Shown here piece by piece: positions 12,616 through 36,310 of a stretch of DNA of 44,000 nucleotides. A program made the translations under genes and the position numbers. Source of the DNA: Bacteroidia bacterium (GTDB lineage: Bacteria; Bacteroidota; Bacteroidia; JADZBD01); contig JADZBD010000019.1 of assembly GCA_020852255.1 (NCBI GenBank), forward strand, positions 1-44,000, written 5' to 3'. The notes under the pieces were generated by a model. The model had not been told where the DNA came from, ran no database searches, and was given only the letters and a program-made list of their open reading frames with translations. Position 1 is the stretch's first letter. Each line of letters begins with the position of its first letter.

Positions 12616-13830
12616 ATGTTGCTGGCTCTTTTCCGGAGAATTACCTTATCTGGGGTAAGAAAATATCAGGATGCAGACACCATGCGCCGTGTGCTGCTTA
12701 TCAATCAGTTTACCTGGCTGGGTGCAGGCTTTCATCTTGTCGGTATCGTGTTCAGCCTGATCCTGGGTCAATTTGCAATGGCGTATATCCTGGGAGGAAC
12801 TGTCATCCTATACGTCGTTTCTATTTTCTCCGTAAAGGCCGGGCGGTCCATCCTCGCTGTTTCTCTGCAGATCGTTGCGTGTTCTGTGGAAGTTCTTTGC
12901 GGTAACCTGATGTATGATGTTGGCGGAATGATATTCCTGTATTATTTCCCGCTGGTGATGAGCGTGGTTTTTCTTTTAAATCATGATGGTGAAAGCAGGT
13001 ATATGTATTTTAATTTTGGATTCCTGGCAACGTCTGCCGTGTCTTCCATTCTTTTGCTGAATTTAAATATTCATATCGGGATTGAATTGTCCGCACGGAT
13101 GATCCGGGATGCCGCCATATTAAACACGGCACTCAGTTCCTTGCTTACTATTTCTATTTTGTTGCTGTACCTCGATTTTAACAGAAAAGCTCAGAAACGA
13201 CTGGAGAAAATCATACGCGAAAGGGAACTTCTGCTGGCTGAAGTACACCACCGTGTCAAAAACAATCTGGCTATTATTTCCGGATTGCTGAATCTGCAAA
13301 AGAATATGCTTTCAGATAAAGGAATGCAGCAGGTTTTGGAGGATTCGCGTTCACGCGTCGCCTCCATGGCACTGATCCATGACAGATTATATAAGAACCG
13401 CTCTTTCAGTTCGATTGATTTTGATTCTTATGTAAAGAATTTGCTTGATGAGATCGAAAGAGGGTATGGGTTGCGCAAGAAAGTAAAGCGGGATTTACGC
13501 ATTATAAATGTAAACCTGGATCTCAATTCATCCATTCCCTGCGGACTGATTCTAAACGAGCTTGTTACAAACTCCTACAAACATGCATTCCGCAAGTCTG
13601 AAGGGGCAGTTTTTCTTGAAATACTTCAGACAGGGAACCATGTGAGCTTTCATTATGCAGATAATGGCCCCGGAGCACCCAATGTTGAAGGAATAACGGA
13701 GTCAGAATCCCTCGGAACAACCATTATTACTTCTCTTGTGGAACAACTGGAAGGAACCTTTCGCTTCTATAACGACGATGGCTTGCATTTCGTAATGGAA
13801 TTCGAGTTTAAAAGCAGAAAAGCCGCATGA
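12616..13830 (+). CDS. Membrane sensor histidine kinase, HisKA_2 type (first of pair)
   Basis: 404 aa. Six hydrophobic segments between about 29 and 187 form the membrane part, with no large extracytoplasmic domain. A short coiled coil (188-205) leads to the HisKA_2-type phosphoacceptor region EVHHRVKNNLAIISGLLNLQKN (split here as E209-L218 and A219-N230) with His at 211/212. The HATPase domain shows the N-box NELVTNSYKHAF (314-325) and a G-box DNGPG (349-353). Such kinases autophosphorylate on His and pass phosphate to a response regulator, but no receiver-domain gene is in the window. The start has an AAGGA just upstream, one of the few SD-like sequences here. Its stop overlaps the next kinase as ATGA. 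Confidence 0.9.
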   Translation: MLLALFRRITLSGVRKYQDADTMRRVLLINQFTWLGAGFHLVGIVFSLILGQFAMAYILGGTVILYVVSIFSVKAGRSILAVSLQIVACSVEVLCGNLMYDVGGMIFLYYFPLVMSVVFLLNHDGESRYMYFNFGFLATSAVSSILLLNLNIHIGIELSARMIRDAAILNTALSSLLTISILLLYLDFNRKAQKRLEKIIRERELLLAEVHHRVKNNLAIISGLLNLQKNMLSDKGMQQVLEDSRSRVASMALIHDRLYKNRSFSSIDFDSYVKNLLDEIERGYGLRKKVKRDLRIINVNLDLNSSIPCGLILNELVTNSYKHAFRKSEGAVFLEILQTGNHVSFHYADNGPGAPNVEGITESESLGTTIITSLVEQLEGTFRFYNDDGLHFVMEFEFKSRKAA

Positions 13831-15047
13831 AGGAAAGACTGAACAGCGTGCTAAGCAAAGGGGTGACTTTTTATTCAACCTCCGAGGAGCGAAGAAGCGT
13901 GTACGTGCTGAATCAGTTTCTGATGCTTGCATTTATTTGTATTGCCGCCTCCATGATCACGAATGCCATCATTGATACATCTTTTATTAGTTTGTACTAC
14001 GGTATTCCCTCCTTGATCGTACTGGCGGCAGTAGCAGCCCTGAATATCAGCGGCTATCTGTATGCTGCGATGGTGTTGCTCTTTGTCAGTTTGAATGTAT
14101 TAGTCGGGGTTTTTACCGTTGGCCTGGGAATTAGAGGGCTGGCGTACCTTTATTTTTTTCCTATGATGCTCGTCCAGATGTTCATGTTCTCCAATGAAAG
14201 GGTGGCGTCAATATTTTATTTTCTCTTTGGAATGACTGTCTTCTCGGGCATTGCCACTGTTTGGTACGCACTTACACATCCTCCGTTCACGCATGCGCTG
14301 TTTCTGGAGATTGCTCACACCTCGCCATACCTTAATCTGTCACTTTGTTTCATAATGACCGGATACATGGTAATGGCTTTTATGCGTATGCAACGCCAGA
14401 GAGAAAAGCATCTGCAGGTGATGGTTAGCGACAAGCAGACGCTGCTGAGCGAAGTTCACCATAGAGTTAAAAACAACCTTGCAATCATCTCTTCTCTGCT
14501 TAATCTCCAAAAGAATTCCGTAGAGGATGCGGCGGTGCAGCGCGCACTGGACGACAGCCGTAACCGTATTTATACCATGGCACTGATCCATGAAAAGCTC
14601 TACAAAAACCAAACTTTTTCCTCTATTGGCTTCTTTGATTATGCCGACAGCTTGCTCCGGGAGTACATTCGATCGTCCCTCAAAACCCGAATCAGCCCTC
14701 AGATCCGGATTGACGGGATCAGCCTGGTGCTGGGTCAGGCTATTCCCTGCGGACTGATTCTGAACGAACTTATCACAAATTCCATCAAACATGGGTTCCG
14801 TGAGAGGAAAGAGGGGGAGATCAGCATTGGAATGTTTCGGGAAAGCGGACGAATTGTTTTTGAGTACAGTGATAATGGTAACGGGGTTTCAGACATACAA
14901 AAGCTGAAGGAGCAGGAAACCCTGGGAATGACTATTGTTTATTCACTGGCTGAGCAGCTGGGCGGCACTCCCGAGTTTCACGGAGAAACGGGGTTCCGGT
15001 TCAAACTCTCCTTTCCAGAGGAATTTGAGAAGAACCTGCCTGCTTAA
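13827..15047 (+). CDS. Membrane sensor histidine kinase, HisKA_2 type (second of pair)
   Basis: 406 aa, clearly paralogous to the preceding gene. It shows the same architecture, nearly the same length and the phosphoacceptor motif at exactly the same residue numbers (EVHHRVKNNL, His 211/212). Six membrane segments span about 30-187. The kinase core includes SLLNLQKN, the N-box NELITNSIKHGF and the G-box DNGNG; the C-terminus TIVYSLAEQLGG matches the sister copy. The membrane halves are far more divergent than the kinase halves, so the two may sense different signals through a shared output or act as a heterodimer. Its start overlaps the upstream stop (13827-13830), so it is translationally coupled. 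Confidence 0.9.
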   Translation: MKERLNSVLSKGVTFYSTSEERRSVYVLNQFLMLAFICIAASMITNAIIDTSFISLYYGIPSLIVLAAVAALNISGYLYAAMVLLFVSLNVLVGVFTVGLGIRGLAYLYFFPMMLVQMFMFSNERVASIFYFLFGMTVFSGIATVWYALTHPPFTHALFLEIAHTSPYLNLSLCFIMTGYMVMAFMRMQRQREKHLQVMVSDKQTLLSEVHHRVKNNLAIISSLLNLQKNSVEDAAVQRALDDSRNRIYTMALIHEKLYKNQTFSSIGFFDYADSLLREYIRSSLKTRISPQIRIDGISLVLGQAIPCGLILNELITNSIKHGFRERKEGEISIGMFRESGRIVFEYSDNGNGVSDIQKLKEQETLGMTIVYSLAEQLGGTPEFHGETGFRFKLSFPEEFEKNLPA

Positions 15048-20921: not shown

Positions 20922-20925
20922 TCTT

Positions 20926-22377
20926 TTATTTTTTCATTCGTGACTGAATGTATTTTTCACTCGGAAGTAAGCTGCGCTGTATACGCCGCGCATAGTGAAT
21001 GGAATCCAGGATCTCTTTTTGTTTTTCTTCTACCAGTTCCTTCTGTTTGGCAATAATTCGGTTATCGCGTTGCTTTTGTCGGTAAGCCCGGAAGGAAATA
21101 GCGGCCACCGAAAGCATCAGAAGAAAGCCTGTAATGCCTCCGTAAATGTACCAACGTTGCTGCTTTAGCTCCTGCTGATGCGACATTTCGCGTTTGGCTA
21201 CCTCGGCGGCCTGACGTATACTATCAGCTTGCTGTTCTTTTTCAAAATCATAACGCATCTCCTGCTGTACCTGCTTTCTTGTGTTTTCTTCATTATTCAT
21301 GCTGTCACGAAAAGCAATAAAAAGCATATAATTCCGAAGTGCAGAGCGGTAATTACCCTGCAGACTATCCAGAAACGCCAGACCTGAGTAAGACTCCCTG
21401 ATCACCATTTTGGAGGAGATGTTCAGACCAATTTCAAGTCCTTTTTCAATATGTGACCTGGCATCTGCATACTTACCCATTTTAATCAGCAGGTTGCCGA
21501 TGTTGTAATGGGAAGAAGCAATTCCGTTTTGGTCACCCGTTCCCTCGCGGATACGCAGAGATGATTTCAGATGCATTTCGGCCAGCGTGTAGTGCATTTT
21601 CTTTTGGATGCTGTCTTTCCCGGCCCACCCCATGTATAATGTTCCGATATTATTCATGGTGTTTCCCTGTTCTTTTCTGTTTCCTGTCTCCTCTACCAGT
21701 TTCAGTGAGAGTTTATACATGCGAAGAGCATCTTCATATTTTTCCAGCATTTTGTAAATGACGCCCAGATTGTTGTATACATTTGCCAATCCGTTCAGGT
21801 CATTCGTCTTCCGGAATAGGTTTTCAGCTTTTTCCAGCTCTGCGATCGCATTGGAGTATTCTTTCTGTGCCTGATAAATCAGGCTGATATTATTATGAGA
21901 AAAAGCCATTCCTGCTGTATCTGCGCATTTTTCACGATAGCGTAAACCAATTAAATGATTCTCAAGTGCATCAGGATAATTGCCCATGTCTTGCATAACC
22001 ATAGCAATATTGTTATAAACGGCTCCGCAATTTTTTAGATCTCTGAGTTTTTTCCGGATGATGAGCGAAGCTTTTAGTTCATTCAGTGCCTTAGGATATT
22101 CTCCTTTATACCAGTAAACAACGCCCCGGTTATTCAGAGCACCGGCAAGCCCCCGCATATACTTCAGACTTCTCGACAGGTTCGCGGCAAGGGTTCCGTA
22201 ATAAAGCGCAGAATCAAATTTACCCTTGATGGCCAGATGACGGGCGTACTGCGTGCATGCAATAACCGTTCCGGTGTCTTTTTTACCTGCCCTGATGATG
22301 CGGAGAAGGGAGTCTGCAGGACCACTGGTCAGGGAACAGTAAGAAGTGAGCATGAGAAGAAGCAAGCCTATTTTCAT
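20926..22377 (-). CDS. TPR sensor-like membrane protein with SpoIIE-linker-like tail (copy A)
   Basis: 483 aa. A signal peptide (about 1-19) is followed by about eight TPR units from about 25 to 350 (motifs such as ALNNRGVVYWYKGEYPKAL, AVYNNIAMVMQDMGNYPDAL, ANVYNNLGVIYKMLEKYEDAL). These lie in the periplasm, followed by a long charged helix, one membrane segment (about 409-430) and a cytoplasmic coiled coil. The last residues read VEEKQKEILDSIHYARRIQ, then RSLLPSEKYI and six more residues to the stop. In longer relatives this motif is the linker immediately before a SpoIIE phosphatase domain, which is missing here. Its ATG overlaps the stop of copy B (22374-22377). It shares a 48-bp identical block with copy B. 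Confidence 0.85.
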   Translation of the reverse strand: MKIGLLLLMLTSYCSLTSGPADSLLRIIRAGKKDTGTVIACTQYARHLAIKGKFDSALYYGTLAANLSRSLKYMRGLAGALNNRGVVYWYKGEYPKALNELKASLIIRKKLRDLKNCGAVYNNIAMVMQDMGNYPDALENHLIGLRYREKCADTAGMAFSHNNISLIYQAQKEYSNAIAELEKAENLFRKTNDLNGLANVYNNLGVIYKMLEKYEDALRMYKLSLKLVEETGNRKEQGNTMNNIGTLYMGWAGKDSIQKKMHYTLAEMHLKSSLRIREGTGDQNGIASSHYNIGNLLIKMGKYADARSHIEKGLEIGLNISSKMVIRESYSGLAFLDSLQGNYRSALRNYMLFIAFRDSMNNEENTRKQVQQEMRYDFEKEQQADSIRQAAEVAKREMSHQQELKQQRWYIYGGITGFLLMLSVAAISFRAYRQKQRDNRIIAKQKELVEEKQKEILDSIHYARRIQRSLLPSEKYIQSRMKK

Positions 22378-23672
22378 TTTTTTGATGGGATTTTCGAATG
22401 GATGTACTTCTCCGTTGGCATCAGACTATTCTGGATGCGTTTGGCATAGTGAATGGAATCCAGGATCTCTTTTTGTTTTTCTTCTACCAGTATTTTTTGA
22501 TTTTCAATTTCTGATTTTTGCCTTCGTGTGACACGGAAGCGGTTAAATACAATGAGTAAAAACACACTCAGCAGCACCAGGCCGGCTACAGAAACGGTGA
22601 GAATGATCCTTCCACGGCTTTCCTCCGCATATTTTTCGGTTTCCAGGGCTTTGATTTGCAATTCTTTCCTTTCTGATTCAAATTCAGCGTGCAGCTGATT
22701 CATCTGCCTTCGGTTTTCCTCATTGTACACACTGTCTTTAAAAAGAAGGAGTTGTTTTAATATTCCTGCTTCCTGCGCATGGTCATTTTCTTTTCCTGCA
22801 ATCTCAGCCTGATATTTGAGGATCTCGATCCGGTAAAGGTTCGAATTAATCCTGTTGGTCCAGTGCATGCTTCGCGCCAGGTAATCTTTTGCTTTCCTGT
22901 AATCTCCGAGTTTCAGATATGTTGCACCCAGATTGAGGGTTGAAAGGGCACACATTTCTTCATCGCCAATGTTTTCTTTTATTTCCAGGCACTTCTTAAA
23001 GTAGAAGACTGCACTGTCCGGAAGATCCAACTGCAGGTAGGTTTCCCCAAGATCGTTGTATGAATCGGCCAGTTCATTGGGGACATTTCTTTTCAGGCGA
23101 ATGGTGATGGCTTTTTTCCGCCATTTGAGCGACTCATCGTAATTCCCGAGCTTAAGATAACAATTGGCCAGATTGTTATATGCGGATCCAAGAGAACGGC
23201 CATCCGAATTTTTCTCCGCCCTTCCGATCAGTTCATAAAAAAGCGGAATGGCGTCCTTGAATTTGTCAGCCTGAAGGTAAAGCAGGCCCAGGCTGTTGAT
23301 AGATCGGTATTCCCATTCGTCATTTTTTACCAGCCGGGCAACGGCGAGTGCTTTTTTCTCCTCCGTCATTCCCTTGGCAAATTCACCGGTAATGAAGCAG
23401 GCATTTGCCAACAGATGATGCCCGTGGTACAAACCATGCGAATAACTAAGCTTTTTAGAAAGATCCAGTGCGCGGTTTGCATAAAAGATACTGCTGTCGG
23501 AAGAATTCCATCCGTAACGATAGGCCATGCTTACATATAGCCGAACCCTTGATGTGTCGTGATGTGCATTCCGGAGTTCCCTGCGCAGGGAGTCAAGGAG
23601 GGTATCTGCCTTTGCATGGAAAGAGGGGAACAAGGCCAGTAGCGGGACGAGTGGAAGCAGGTAAGGTTTCAC
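22374..23672 (-). CDS. TPR sensor-like membrane protein with SpoIIE-linker-like tail (copy B)
   Basis: 432 aa from the GTG at 23672; a TTG one codon upstream is also open. Signal peptide (PLLALFPSFHAKA), about six to seven TPR units (for example GSAYNNLANCYLKLGNYDESL, LADSYNDLGETYLQLDLPDSA), a charged helix, a membrane segment (about 350-372) and a cytoplasmic helix. The tail is VEEKQKEILDSIHYAKRIQ followed by NSLMPTEKYI and eight residues. There is no catalytic domain. It is the first gene of a two-gene operon with copy A. A perfect -7 element lies 4 nt before the GTG, so the transcript is probably leaderless. By analogy to longer TPR proteins it senses a periplasmic or surface signal; the ligand is unknown. 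Confidence 0.84.
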   Translation of the reverse strand: MKPYLLPLVPLLALFPSFHAKADTLLDSLRRELRNAHHDTSRVRLYVSMAYRYGWNSSDSSIFYANRALDLSKKLSYSHGLYHGHHLLANACFITGEFAKGMTEEKKALAVARLVKNDEWEYRSINSLGLLYLQADKFKDAIPLFYELIGRAEKNSDGRSLGSAYNNLANCYLKLGNYDESLKWRKKAITIRLKRNVPNELADSYNDLGETYLQLDLPDSAVFYFKKCLEIKENIGDEEMCALSTLNLGATYLKLGDYRKAKDYLARSMHWTNRINSNLYRIEILKYQAEIAGKENDHAQEAGILKQLLLFKDSVYNEENRRQMNQLHAEFESERKELQIKALETEKYAEESRGRIILTVSVAGLVLLSVFLLIVFNRFRVTRRQKSEIENQKILVEEKQKEILDSIHYAKRIQNSLMPTEKYIHSKIPSKK

Positions 23673-23676
23673 CAAT

Positions 23677-23684: not shown

Positions 23685-23797
23685 CTGATTTGTCCCGACT
23701 TTCGGTCATGTAATCCCAGGCTGCGCTGCGCTTTTGCTTATGGCAGTATTCATCCGGATTTAGTATTATTGCCATAGTCTGCGATAAAAAGGAAGCA

Positions 23798-23893
23798 ATG
23801 TTCAACAGTATTCAATACGCGCGCGGAATCCAGCATACATTGTTGCCCACACGGCAGTACATCAAGCGGGCAATGGAGCGATTAAAATCATAA
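23798..23893 (+). pseudogene. Orphan C-terminal tail of a TPR sensor-like protein (fragment E)
   Basis: A 31-codon frame ATG...TAA encodes MFNSIQYARGIQHTLLP followed by TRQYIKRAMERLKS. It matches the tail of the four TPR proteins in this window (SIxYAxRIQxxLLPxxxYI), most closely copy C (SIQYARRIQQAQLP...YIERSFKRL). The stop is at the same distance from YI as in the full-length copies. The frame stays open upstream to 23714, but those 28 codons show no TPR, membrane segment or coiled coil. It may be the remnant of a deleted fifth copy or a free-standing small peptide; there is no good promoter. It lies outside all longer open frames. Confidence 0.65.
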
Positions 23894-23998
23894 GTAAAAC
23901 ACCATTCGTTGCGGTGTGTCGGAGCTATTGCTGAACGTTTAGCAGCATTTGACTGACGGAAGGCTCAATGGGAGTGTTTTAAATAATGCTGCTGTGCA

Positions 23999-25111
23999 TC
24001 AATAGATATTCTTCCTCCAGGCTAATTGCACTACGAACTGCCGGGTAAGCCCATCGGTACGGGTCTTTCGGTTAACCACAGGACCAGCAACAAGAAATGT
24101 CAGATCGCTGGTTTTGTTCAATTTGAACACCGCGCTGGCATTTAAATTCAATGTCAGACCGGAAGAACCTGTGGCGGAAATTCGTATCCCGGAAGTGTCT
24201 ATGTACGTGTCTTCCTGCAGGTGATAAATGCCAAGGGCTCCGGCGTTAAGCGTCGCTTTCTTTATTCTGAAGGAACGACTGATTCGAAAAATGGCGTCAT
24301 CTGCCCGCTTCATCTGGTTCGACTCGAAGAAATTGTTATACACCTCTGCATCTTTCGCAAAGGGCTGGTGGAGGTACATGTTATTTGTTTCTGTAAAGGC
24401 GTGCTGATAACCCGCCGTGATCTCCCAACTCTTGTATGCGAACTTGATTCCTGTCAGAAGGTCGTAACTGCCGAGGCTGGTCTGGTAAGGCATGGGCAGA
24501 GGTCTGTTGTTCACCAACAGGTTAGCATCGTTGGTCGGAAACTTGCCTCCAAGGGTTAACACCAGATTTTTCTTGCGCTTTTCTATCAGGTAATAACTCA
24601 GGCTGAGTGTCAGATCGCCGGGCGCCTGCAGGCTTCCCAAATTACCATTCACAAAGGAATAGGGAATTTTGAGCTGAGCGAACATTTTCTGCTTATATAA
24701 ACGTACGGTTCCTTCCAGTTGAAAAGTAAGAATGGAGGTGTTTCTTTCACCCGATCCATAGTGCACACCAAATACCAGCTGGTACCGGGGAAACCGGCTC
24801 ACCACACGGTAAACAATTTTCGTCGTATCGGCGGAAGGACCATTCTCATAACCCGTTCCGGTCTGAATCTTTGTCAGCACATGCATTGAGGAATCCGGCT
24901 TCCCATCGGGGCCAATGCCAACATAGGCGTCTTCGAGTTCCAGTTTATTCAATGTGGTTTTATCGCTGGGGATCTCCTGATAATCAAATCCAAGGATACT
25001 CAGGCTGCCAACGGAGCATACGCCCCCATCGCTGCAACCTTGAGCGTTCGCACGCAAGGCCAGACAATAAAGACATATTCCAATAAGTAAACCAATGGCA
25101 GGGGTCCGCAC
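23999..25111 (-). CDS. Exported outer-membrane beta-barrel-like protein
   Basis: 370 aa from a GTG at 25111. Signal peptide 1-23 (ends RANA), then QGCSDGGVCSVGSL, a Cys-pair opening that I recall from Bacteroidota exported proteins. The rest is a series of alternating hydrophobic/polar strands with aromatic ends (LVFGVHYGSGERNTSILTFQ, LTLSLSYYLIEKRKKNLVLT, KSWEITAGYQHAFTETNN) and ends FVVQLAWRKNIY, with a C-terminal aromatic-rich strand as in barrels. It looks like a transporter/porin-type barrel; the substrate is unknown. A TAGATTTA element lies 4 nt before the GTG. It is 58 bp downstream of the PorP/SprF gene and may be separately transcribed. Confidence 0.72.
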   Translation of the reverse strand: MRTPAIGLLIGICLYCLALRANAQGCSDGGVCSVGSLSILGFDYQEIPSDKTTLNKLELEDAYVGIGPDGKPDSSMHVLTKIQTGTGYENGPSADTTKIVYRVVSRFPRYQLVFGVHYGSGERNTSILTFQLEGTVRLYKQKMFAQLKIPYSFVNGNLGSLQAPGDLTLSLSYYLIEKRKKNLVLTLGGKFPTNDANLLVNNRPLPMPYQTSLGSYDLLTGIKFAYKSWEITAGYQHAFTETNNMYLHQPFAKDAEVYNNFFESNQMKRADDAIFRISRSFRIKKATLNAGALGIYHLQEDTYIDTSGIRISATGSSGLTLNLNASAVFKLNKTSDLTFLVAGPVVNRKTRTDGLTRQFVVQLAWRKNIY

Positions 25112-33683: not shown

Positions 33684-35009
33684 ATGTTCCGTGCCTTTGC
33701 CCTGCTGATATTTTTCCTCACCTTCTACTTCCCCTTGTTTGCCGGTTCCGGTAGTCAAAATAGCAACGATTCCCTGATGGCAGTTATTCATGGTCCGGCG
33801 AACGATACAAACAAAGTCATAGCCTGCTATACGATTTCCAGGCGATTGCGTGCCAAGGGAGACTACGATACAGCCATGTATTATGCCGGAGCAGGACTGG
33901 ATTTGTCCAGGAGGCTGAAATATGTCTCAGGAGAGGGCCATTCACTCTATACTGTTGGGCTCGTGCATCAGGGGAAAGGCAATAATCCTGAGGCGCAGAA
34001 TTGTTATCTGCTTTCCCTTCGTATTGCCGAAAAGTTGGGTGATCGACTGCTGTTAGGCGCCACCACCAATGCACTCGGGATCATTTATTGGTATATGGGA
34101 GACCATGAAACCGCATTGGATTACCTGCACCGGTCGCTAATGGTGAAAAAGCTGATGAAAGATGAACGGGGGATTGCCAATACCTACAACAATATCGCAA
34201 ATGTACTGCATGATCAAGGTAAATTGAGGGAGGCGATTGGTAATCTCAATGTTTCCATACGGATCAAGCAAAAGCTGAAGGATAAGCTCGGACTGTCCAA
34301 CTCTTTTACCAACAGGGGATCCTGCTACCAGAACCTGGGTATCATGGACAGCGCATTGATGGATTTTACCGCGGCTCTGGAATTAAGGAACGAGTATGGT
34401 GACAAAGCCGGGATTGTGGGATCTATGAATAATCTAATTCAACTTTATTCAATGACCGGACGCGTTCGGGATGCTCTCGGGCTATCCGGGAAGTCGCTGG
34501 CTTTAGGAAAAGAACTAAACAGCCGGAGAATATTTATGGAATGTTACAAGGCTGCATCTGTAGCTTACGACAGTGCCGGCCTGTACAGCGAAGCGTACGG
34601 GTATTTTAAACAATATCTGGTGTATAAGGACAGTATCCTGAATGAGGAGAACATGGAAAAGTCCATACAGCAGCAGATGCAATATGATTTTGAAATGAAG
34701 GCTGCCGCACTCCGTGCGAAACAGGAAAGAAAGGAAGTATTGGCGCAGCAAGAACACCGCACGCGGGAAACTATCATTTTATTTATTGCTTCCAGTATTG
34801 GATTAACGCTGGTGCTTTCCATATTGCTACTCGTTTATCTGGCACGAAACAGAAGGAAAAACCGGTTGATCGAAAATCAGAAAATCTCCCTGGAGGAGAA
34901 ACAGGCGGATATAGTAAGCAGTATTCAGTACGCCAGGAGGATACAGCAGGCACAATTACCCGCAATGCAATACATCGAGCGCTCATTTAAAAGACTTAAT
35001 AAGGGGTGA
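33684..35009 (+). CDS. TPR sensor-like membrane protein with SpoIIE-linker-like tail (copy C)
   Basis: 441 aa. Signal peptide 1-20 (FLTFYFPLFAG). About six to seven TPR units span about 40-310 (ATTNALGIIYWYMGDHETAL, ANTYNNIANVLHDQGKLREAI, SNSFTNRGSCYQNLGIMDSAL). A charged helix follows, then a membrane segment (about 358-385) and a cytoplasmic helix ending LEEKQADIVSSIQYARRIQ, then QAQLPAMQYI and ten residues. No phosphatase or kinase domain follows. It is the first gene of a two-gene operon with copy D; its stop overlaps the copy D GTG (35006-35009). It has the same layout as the A/B pair on the other strand 10 kb away, so two tandem pairs exist in this window. Confidence 0.85.
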   Translation: MFRAFALLIFFLTFYFPLFAGSGSQNSNDSLMAVIHGPANDTNKVIACYTISRRLRAKGDYDTAMYYAGAGLDLSRRLKYVSGEGHSLYTVGLVHQGKGNNPEAQNCYLLSLRIAEKLGDRLLLGATTNALGIIYWYMGDHETALDYLHRSLMVKKLMKDERGIANTYNNIANVLHDQGKLREAIGNLNVSIRIKQKLKDKLGLSNSFTNRGSCYQNLGIMDSALMDFTAALELRNEYGDKAGIVGSMNNLIQLYSMTGRVRDALGLSGKSLALGKELNSRRIFMECYKAASVAYDSAGLYSEAYGYFKQYLVYKDSILNEENMEKSIQQQMQYDFEMKAAALRAKQERKEVLAQQEHRTRETIILFIASSIGLTLVLSILLLVYLARNRRKNRLIENQKISLEEKQADIVSSIQYARRIQQAQLPAMQYIERSFKRLNKG

Positions 35010-36310
35010 GAAAGCTTATGGTCATATCTCTCGCAGCGATGCTTGCCGTTATGCAGGCTTTTGCCGGTGATTTAGACTCACTTGAGTTCTGGCTGAGAGC
35101 GAAAAGCGATACGCTGAAGGTTCATAAGCTGGTAAGGATTTCTACGCAGTTGAGGAAATCGGGTGAGTTAAAACGCTCATTCGATGTGGCGCTGGAGGCC
35201 TTGAAAACAGCGGAAATGATAGGGTGGAAAAGAGGGCTTGGGTTGGGCTATGGGGCGGTAGGTACAGCGGATTTCCAAATGGGGAATTATTCTTCTTCGC
35301 TCGAATGGCAGCTGAAAGCACTCGCAGTCAGAGAGGAACTGGGTGACTTGCAGGGTAAAAGTGCAGCCTACACCAATATAGGGCTGGCCTATCACGGGAT
35401 GATGAAATATAGAGAAGCACTTCGGTACCTGGACTCCAGTTATGCAATAAAAAACCAGATTCAGGATAAAAAGGGACTGGTTGCTGTACACAATAACCGG
35501 GGCATGGTTCTGGCCGATATGGGAATGTATGAGCCTGCCCTGGAGGAGTACGGGAAATCTTTGGTGCTGGGAAAAGAACTGAAGGATGATTTTGGGATGG
35601 CCTATGCCCTGAATAATCTGGGAAGTGTTTATTCAATGTTGGGATGGAACAAAGAGGCGCTGTTGTCGTACAAAGCTTCGCTCGAGATCAAGAGAAAGTT
35701 GGGAGAGAAGAACATGATAGCAGCCTGCTATGGAAATATCGCTACGGTTTATCTTTTGGAAAGACGGATAGAGCTGGCTCAGACGTTTGCTGACAGCGCT
35801 TTGAAGGTCAGCACCGCGGCAGGCAATAAGGAAATCGTTTTCCAGCAGTACCGGTTGCTGGCACGAATCGACAGTGCCCGGGGAGATTTTCGCTTGGCCA
35901 TGCGGCATATGCATTTATATGCCATTGCGCGCGACAGTGTTCTGAATGAACAAAATACGCGGAGGCTGATTGAGGCACAGCTGCAGTATGATTTTGATAA
36001 GAAGGCAACGATGGAGAGGCAGGAGCGTGAAAAGAGTGATTTTCTGGCGGAGCTTGACAAAGAGAAGCAGCAAAAGATATTGATCATCACTTCGGCAGGT
36101 CTGTTAGTCACCCTGGTGCTCGTGGTACTGATATTCCGAAGTATACGTGCATCGCAAAGAAAGAGCAGGGTAATCGAAGTTCAGAAGAGGGAACTCGAGG
36201 AAAAGCAAAAGGAGATACTGGAAAGTATCCGCTATGCACGCAGAATACAGGTGTCGCTTTTACCCTCGGAAAACAGAATCCGAAACACTCTTTTGAGGCT
36301 ACTCTCCTGA
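35006..36310 (+). CDS. TPR sensor-like membrane protein with SpoIIE-linker-like tail (copy D)
   Basis: 434 aa from a GTG that overlaps the upstream stop as GTGA. Signal peptide about 1-21 (MVISLAAMLAVMQAFA). About six TPR units follow (SAAYTNIGLAYHGMMKYREAL, VAVHNNRGMVLADMGMYEPAL, AYALNNLGSVYSMLGWNKEAL), then a charged helix, a membrane segment (about 352-372) and a cytoplasmic helix ending LEEKQKEILESIRYARRIQ, then VSLLPSENRI and nine residues. As in copies A-C, the tail is that of a SpoIIE linker but the protein stops there. The use of GTG in the overlap means its yield depends on translation of copy C. Confidence 0.85.
   Translation: MRKLMVISLAAMLAVMQAFAGDLDSLEFWLRAKSDTLKVHKLVRISTQLRKSGELKRSFDVALEALKTAEMIGWKRGLGLGYGAVGTADFQMGNYSSSLEWQLKALAVREELGDLQGKSAAYTNIGLAYHGMMKYREALRYLDSSYAIKNQIQDKKGLVAVHNNRGMVLADMGMYEPALEEYGKSLVLGKELKDDFGMAYALNNLGSVYSMLGWNKEALLSYKASLEIKRKLGEKNMIAACYGNIATVYLLERRIELAQTFADSALKVSTAAGNKEIVFQQYRLLARIDSARGDFRLAMRHMHLYAIARDSVLNEQNTRRLIEAQLQYDFDKKATMERQEREKSDFLAELDKEKQQKILIITSAGLLVTLVLVVLIFRSIRASQRKSRVIEVQKRELEEKQKEILESIRYARRIQVSLLPSENRIRNTLLRLLS

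Follow-up and report, generated by a model that had tools for sequence, protein, structure and literature searches.

A 31-codon orphan tail in a Bacteroidia genome, a probable relic of a fifth sensor gene, and a candidate split SpoIIE/PP2C phosphatase

The window analyzed here, a 44,000-nucleotide stretch of DNA from a Bacteroidia bacterium, carries two overlapping TPR-TM gene pairs, T1/T2 on the minus strand and T3/T4 on the plus strand, with the same type of C-terminal tail in all four products. We refer to such genes as stump genes. Their intact products are membrane proteins, mostly of signal peptide-TPR-TM layout, which end in the linker of a SpoIIE/PP2C phosphatase without the phosphatase domain. 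A membrane histidine kinase of the HisKA_2 type is also encoded near the TPR genes (13827–15047, plus strand). Beside T2 lies a short orphan frame that encodes only a tail. The features are listed here by position.

20926–22377, minus strand: T1, TPR-TM-linker stump protein, 483 aa (tail 20923–21036)
22374–23675, minus strand: T2, TPR-TM-linker stump protein, 433 aa, 4-base overlap with T1 (tail 22377–22490)
23774–23797, plus strand: residual linker similarity over the 7–8 codons 5' of the orphan ATG (VCDKKEA versus VEEKQKE); homology stops approximately here
23798–23893, plus strand: orphan tail frame, by translation and homology a likely relic of a lost stump-type sensor gene (its 3' end)
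23899–23917, minus strand: terminator-like hairpin from a pattern scan only, probably of the 23999–25111 gene; its T tract enters the 3' end of the orphan
33684–35009, plus strand: T3, TPR-TM-linker stump protein, 441 aa (tail 34890–35003), the orphan's best match in the genome
35006–36310, plus strand: T4, TPR-TM-linker stump protein, 434 aa, 4-base overlap with T3 (tail 36194–36304)

The orphan begins with an ATG at 23798–23800, runs for 31 codons on the plus strand and ends at a TAA (23891–23893), inside a 323-base gap between T2 and the next gene (23999–25111, minus strand). Its translation (23798–23893, plus strand) is MFNSIQYARGIQHTLLPTRQYIKRAMERLKS, followed by the stop. The stop-to-stop open frame around it spans 59 codons, and an A-rich leader precedes the ATG. 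An earlier reading made without database searches (the sequence-only reading) had reported a 31-codon frame in this gap, ending where the full-length tails end. Translation confirmed the frame, and its end lies 28 residues after a conserved Ser, in keeping with about 25–35 for the other tails. Scans for the Bacteroidota promoter motif and for sigma-70 promoters gave nothing above chance at the orphan, and a search of the gap against Rfam gave no match. The pattern scan for terminator-like hairpins found one, versus 0.4 expected.

Several comparisons connect the orphan to the sensor tails. Its best match in its own genome is the tail of T3 (BLAST E = 5.8e-5, genome-wide), at 57% over 28 aa and 71% at the DNA level over 63 bases. 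Tails of relatives searched against the gap alone gave tblastn E values of 1e-11 to 1e-8, and an HMM built from 57 tails, with the orphan left out, scored it at 44.6 bits. By these measures the orphan is homologous to the C-terminal tails of T1–T4, well beyond chance. The stump-tail linker EEKQKEILDSIxYAxRIQxxLLPxxxYI, ending no more than about 35 residues after the Ser without a PP2C domain, is recognizable in the orphan, with a Gly as deviation. The catalytic PP2C domain (PF07228) is absent from the orphan and from T1–T4. Searches of the gap in all frames with 57 proteins as queries found no TPR or TM remnants above noise. Because the orphan has no N-terminal sensor and no TM segment, it is a fragment rather than a member of the stump family.

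Many proteins of the same genome carry the motif DSIxYAxRIQxxLLP and, after it, FxLYKPKDIVSGDFYW and a SpoIIE/PP2C domain. A tail profile search of this genome (G000) hit 49 places, comprising about a dozen stumps and about 35 other sites. The stumps end ∼30 residues after the Ser and score above every phosphatase-fused copy, and the other sites are PP2C-fused in every case in which the full frame was read. In the PDB, the sole match of the tail profile was 6K4E, the PP2C construct of SiaA, at residues 51–72 (E = 0.0075). A profile of stand-alone PP2C proteins (described below) matched the same chain at residues 80–298 (E = 3.4e-29), giving the order linker then PP2C. Because the tail precedes SpoIIE/PP2C domains in the same genome and matches SiaA just before its PP2C domain, it is the helical linker N-terminal to the phosphatase domain. 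In 47 of 51 fused phosphatases, FxLYKP lies 26 residues from the Ser, so the end of a stump and the start of a stand-alone PP2C meet at the domain boundary; T1–T4 stop right at the point where a phosphatase domain would start.

The same stump tail is found on non-TPR, multi-TM proteins of 242 aa (L032 2134–2862, minus strand, G000:C8) and 263 aa (L050 1495–2286, minus strand, G001:C55), and thus constitutes a portable module. The orphan had been described as a TPR-family tail. Its homology to the tails of TPR genes stands, but the tail is no TPR feature; it is the SpoIIE/PP2C linker helix, which can end other membrane proteins as well. A 130-aa gene in another genome (L069 1228–1620, G001:C62) encodes a signal peptide, one TM segment, a coiled coil and the stump tail, with no TPR. 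We found no ortholog with this layout in our comparison set of 119 genomes of the class, which includes one other genome from the same order.

In other genomes, stump genes adjoin a gene for a stand-alone PP2C protein of ∼236 aa, which starts METxxETKNFFILYKPKDIVSGDFY and has no linker. The source genome has one such gene, outside the window on another contig.

G000:C16:224040–224750 (L096 2541–3251), plus strand: single stand-alone, linker-less SpoIIE/PP2C protein, 236 aa

This protein shares 64–77% identity with the corresponding proteins of six other genomes. Across the class, the stand-alone PP2C profile gave one match of 426–478 bits per genome in 10 of 119 genomes, and none between 360 and 426 bits. 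Stump tails, as called by the tail profile, occur in the same 10 genomes. We read 20 borderline tails, nearly all from outside those 10 genomes, and all continue into a PP2C domain. Three families (f31, f34 and f38) are mixed: in each, some genomes have both parts and others lack the stand-alone PP2C. Stump genes and the stand-alone PP2C gene are adjacent in G034, G038, G008, G071, L107 and L108, but not in G000. Contig 41 of G034 (L095, G034:C41:17000–29000) offers the plainest operon for the proposed split system: seven TPR-stump genes surround one stand-alone PP2C gene on the same strand, with intergenic gaps of a few to ∼45 bases. In a maximum-likelihood tree, a single branch (support 74/97) has all 18 stand-alone PP2Cs on the same side, adjacent to TPR-fused ones, consistent with one fission.

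From this co-occurrence and these operons, we infer a split phosphatase, in which many stump sensors share one catalytic PP2C. The stump sensors would supply the linker in trans to the shared subunit, and their linkers may switch it through coiled-coil dimerization, as RsbU/SiaA-type linkers do in cis. The stand-alone PP2C of G000 is the likely shared catalytic subunit. It is also a concrete candidate for the tail partner at which the sequence-only reading had guessed.

Elements of this scheme resemble known phosphatases. In RsbU-type general stress response phosphatases, which have exchangeable sensors, the state of the sensor is passed on by a helical linker that precedes the PPM/PP2C domain (PMC12143880). 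The RsbU linker becomes a coiled coil, which dimerizes and activates the phosphatase domains (PMC12143880), and the PP2C domain of SiaA is a homodimer formed via helices alpha1–alpha3 (PMC7647112). SiaA of Pseudomonas aeruginosa, a membrane sensor with a C-terminal PP2C domain (PDB 6K4E), has the same linker-then-PP2C order as the tail and stand-alone PP2C profiles, yet its linker and phosphatase are in one protein, whereas here separate genes encode them. In RsbU, activation comes from a partner protein, which orders RsbU's own linker, whereas for the stumps we propose a linker acting in trans. To our knowledge, no RsbU-type member gets its linker from another protein. Bacteroidota TPR-TM-linker-SpoIIE phosphatases (e.g. 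L109, L110 and L113) share the stump architecture up to the linker, and the stand-alone PP2Cs branch within them; unlike the stumps, they are single chains that include the phosphatase. The literature searched, which covered only a minority of subscription journals, yielded no account of Bacteroidota with a SpoIIE phosphatase split in this way.

As for the orphan itself, we favor, with a probability of roughly 0.68, the reading that a fifth stump-family sensor gene has been lost and that the orphan is its decaying 3' end. Its leave-one-out score against the 57 other tails was 22.7, compared to a minimum of 68.9 and a median of 107 for intact tails, and for the tail part alone it scored 36.8 versus an intact minimum of 41.5. 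It is the most deviant of the 58 tails. A Gly occupies a position where 57 of 57 other tails have Arg or Lys, and residues unseen in any other tail number six in the ORF columns plus three upstream (maxima for intact tails, five and two). The low leave-one-out score, the Gly and the unseen residues point to relaxed constraint and thereby favor a relic. So does the loss of everything else that a gene would have: no TPR or TM segment is found, and 5' of the ATG similarity fades within 7–8 codons, with no homology past about 8–10. Openness of the frame is no evidence of selection, since an open frame of this length survived in 51% of simulations with 12 random substitutions. A deletion would have taken the 5' part of the fifth gene and left its last ∼36–40 codons. 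An Ile-to-Met position probably gave rise to the in-frame ATG at this edge by chance, and the orphan would no longer be functional.

Searches for the locus elsewhere returned little. A DNA search in 40 relatives matched only the source genome itself, and no relative was seen to have an intact fifth gene at the site, which counts against a relic. The flanking 370-aa gene, used as a synteny anchor, has homologs at 30–44% in distant families and no relative in the named genome collection. Tail-only fragments do occur in the intergenic DNA of three other genomes.

G001:C31:4904–5008: tail-only fragment with an in-frame stop within the tail
G038:C135:20470–20574: tail-only fragment lacking a start codon and frameshifted within a run of A
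G008:C53:63317–63406: tail-only fragment between two tandem stump genes

These consist of the same tail segment as the orphan, but they differ from it in having a stop codon, a frameshift or a tandem-array setting, and they are not syntenic with the window. By their sequence and setting they look like independent events, rather than one conserved small gene. The G008 fragment lies between tandem copies, as expected after deletion of a middle copy. Beside it (L179 ∼2320–2560, G008:C53) is a CCCCCTTTTGGGGGGATAAAGGGGGG element, which may mark a deletion point. Other short-frame tails did not qualify as tail-only fragments: three belong to frameshifted TPR genes (G016:C12, G008:C2 and G001:C61), two lie near contig ends (G071:C27 and C74) and one is a longer decayed tail with a stop (G031:C43). 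Some TPR-stump genes are split by frameshifts (L087 2986–4529, L090 1643–3300 and L064 1492–2980), for which decay into pseudogenes, phase variation and assembly errors are possible explanations.

The HMM match of the orphan begins at 23774, i.e. 5' of the ATG, but amino acid identity there is 0.16, as compared to 0.64 among intact paralogs, and none is detected farther upstream. The codons just 5' of the ATG, which intact genes conserve most strongly, have gone in the orphan. Within the ORF, nucleotide identity of the orphan to the intact tails of the genome is 0.529, while those tails are 0.527 identical among themselves. The codon-position pattern is also similar to that of intact paralogs, and the divergence may mostly predate any deletion. 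Selection acting on the ORF only could leave similarity confined to the ORF, and so could a breakpoint close to the ATG together with a loss that is fairly recent. Closeness to the paralogs within the ORF and the drop near the ATG count against a relic, as a maintained mini-gene would look alike.

Such a mini-gene would yield a free tail peptide with a function of its own: a cytoplasmic linker helix of 31 residues that would dock on the shared PP2C or on sensor linkers, in competition with the membrane sensors. Besides the similarity pattern, the orphan keeps the core SIxYAxxIQxxLLP and the length of the tail, its ATG has the A-rich leader, a plausible partner exists in the stand-alone PP2C, and the 130-aa protein of G001, with only a signal peptide, a TM segment and the tail, shows that versions without TPR exist. 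Yet the orphan has lost an invariant basic residue and is the most deviant of the 58 tails, it has no consensus promoter beyond chance and no ortholog was found, and the tail-only fragments elsewhere are degenerate and at different loci. We consider a functional peptide unlikely, and its specific form, in which the free helix would bind the single stand-alone PP2C of the genome, rival a dozen membrane sensors with the same helix and so act as a soluble inhibitor or titrator, slightly more doubtful. Of the two options in the sequence-only reading, a scar left when a fifth copy was deleted and a free peptide that competes with the sensors, the deviant tail and the degenerate fragments elsewhere favor the former and make the latter less likely.

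An ectopic copy, whereby a tail segment recombined into the gap from a paralog and no full gene ever stood here, would account for the lack of upstream homology. Tails are natural recombination sites, since no other part of the family is nearly as well conserved (about 50–60% alike, versus about 30% for the proteins). But all known tails lie at about the same distance from the orphan (the highest values being 57% aa and 71% DNA, for T3), so no donor is left, and its flanks show no repeat in the genome; we regard this origin, too, as improbable. The frame is short and the assembly is a draft of 28 contigs, which leaves chance similarity or an assembly artefact to consider. The E values and HMM score already refute chance, and at only about 53% DNA identity paralog tails have too little in common for assembly collapse. 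Either explanation is very improbable.

Taken by itself, as a gene relic, the orphan would be ordinary and of modest interest, and its value is as a lead to the split-phosphatase arrangement. The latter is the more interesting, a candidate arrangement in which a sensor-phosphatase family is broken at the linker. If confirmed, it would be a one-to-many phosphatase, like a receptor array with one common enzyme. It would make the linker-switch model of RsbU and SiaA directly testable in trans, and it would suggest a likely function for about a dozen proteins per genome that have so far been recognizable only as TPR proteins.
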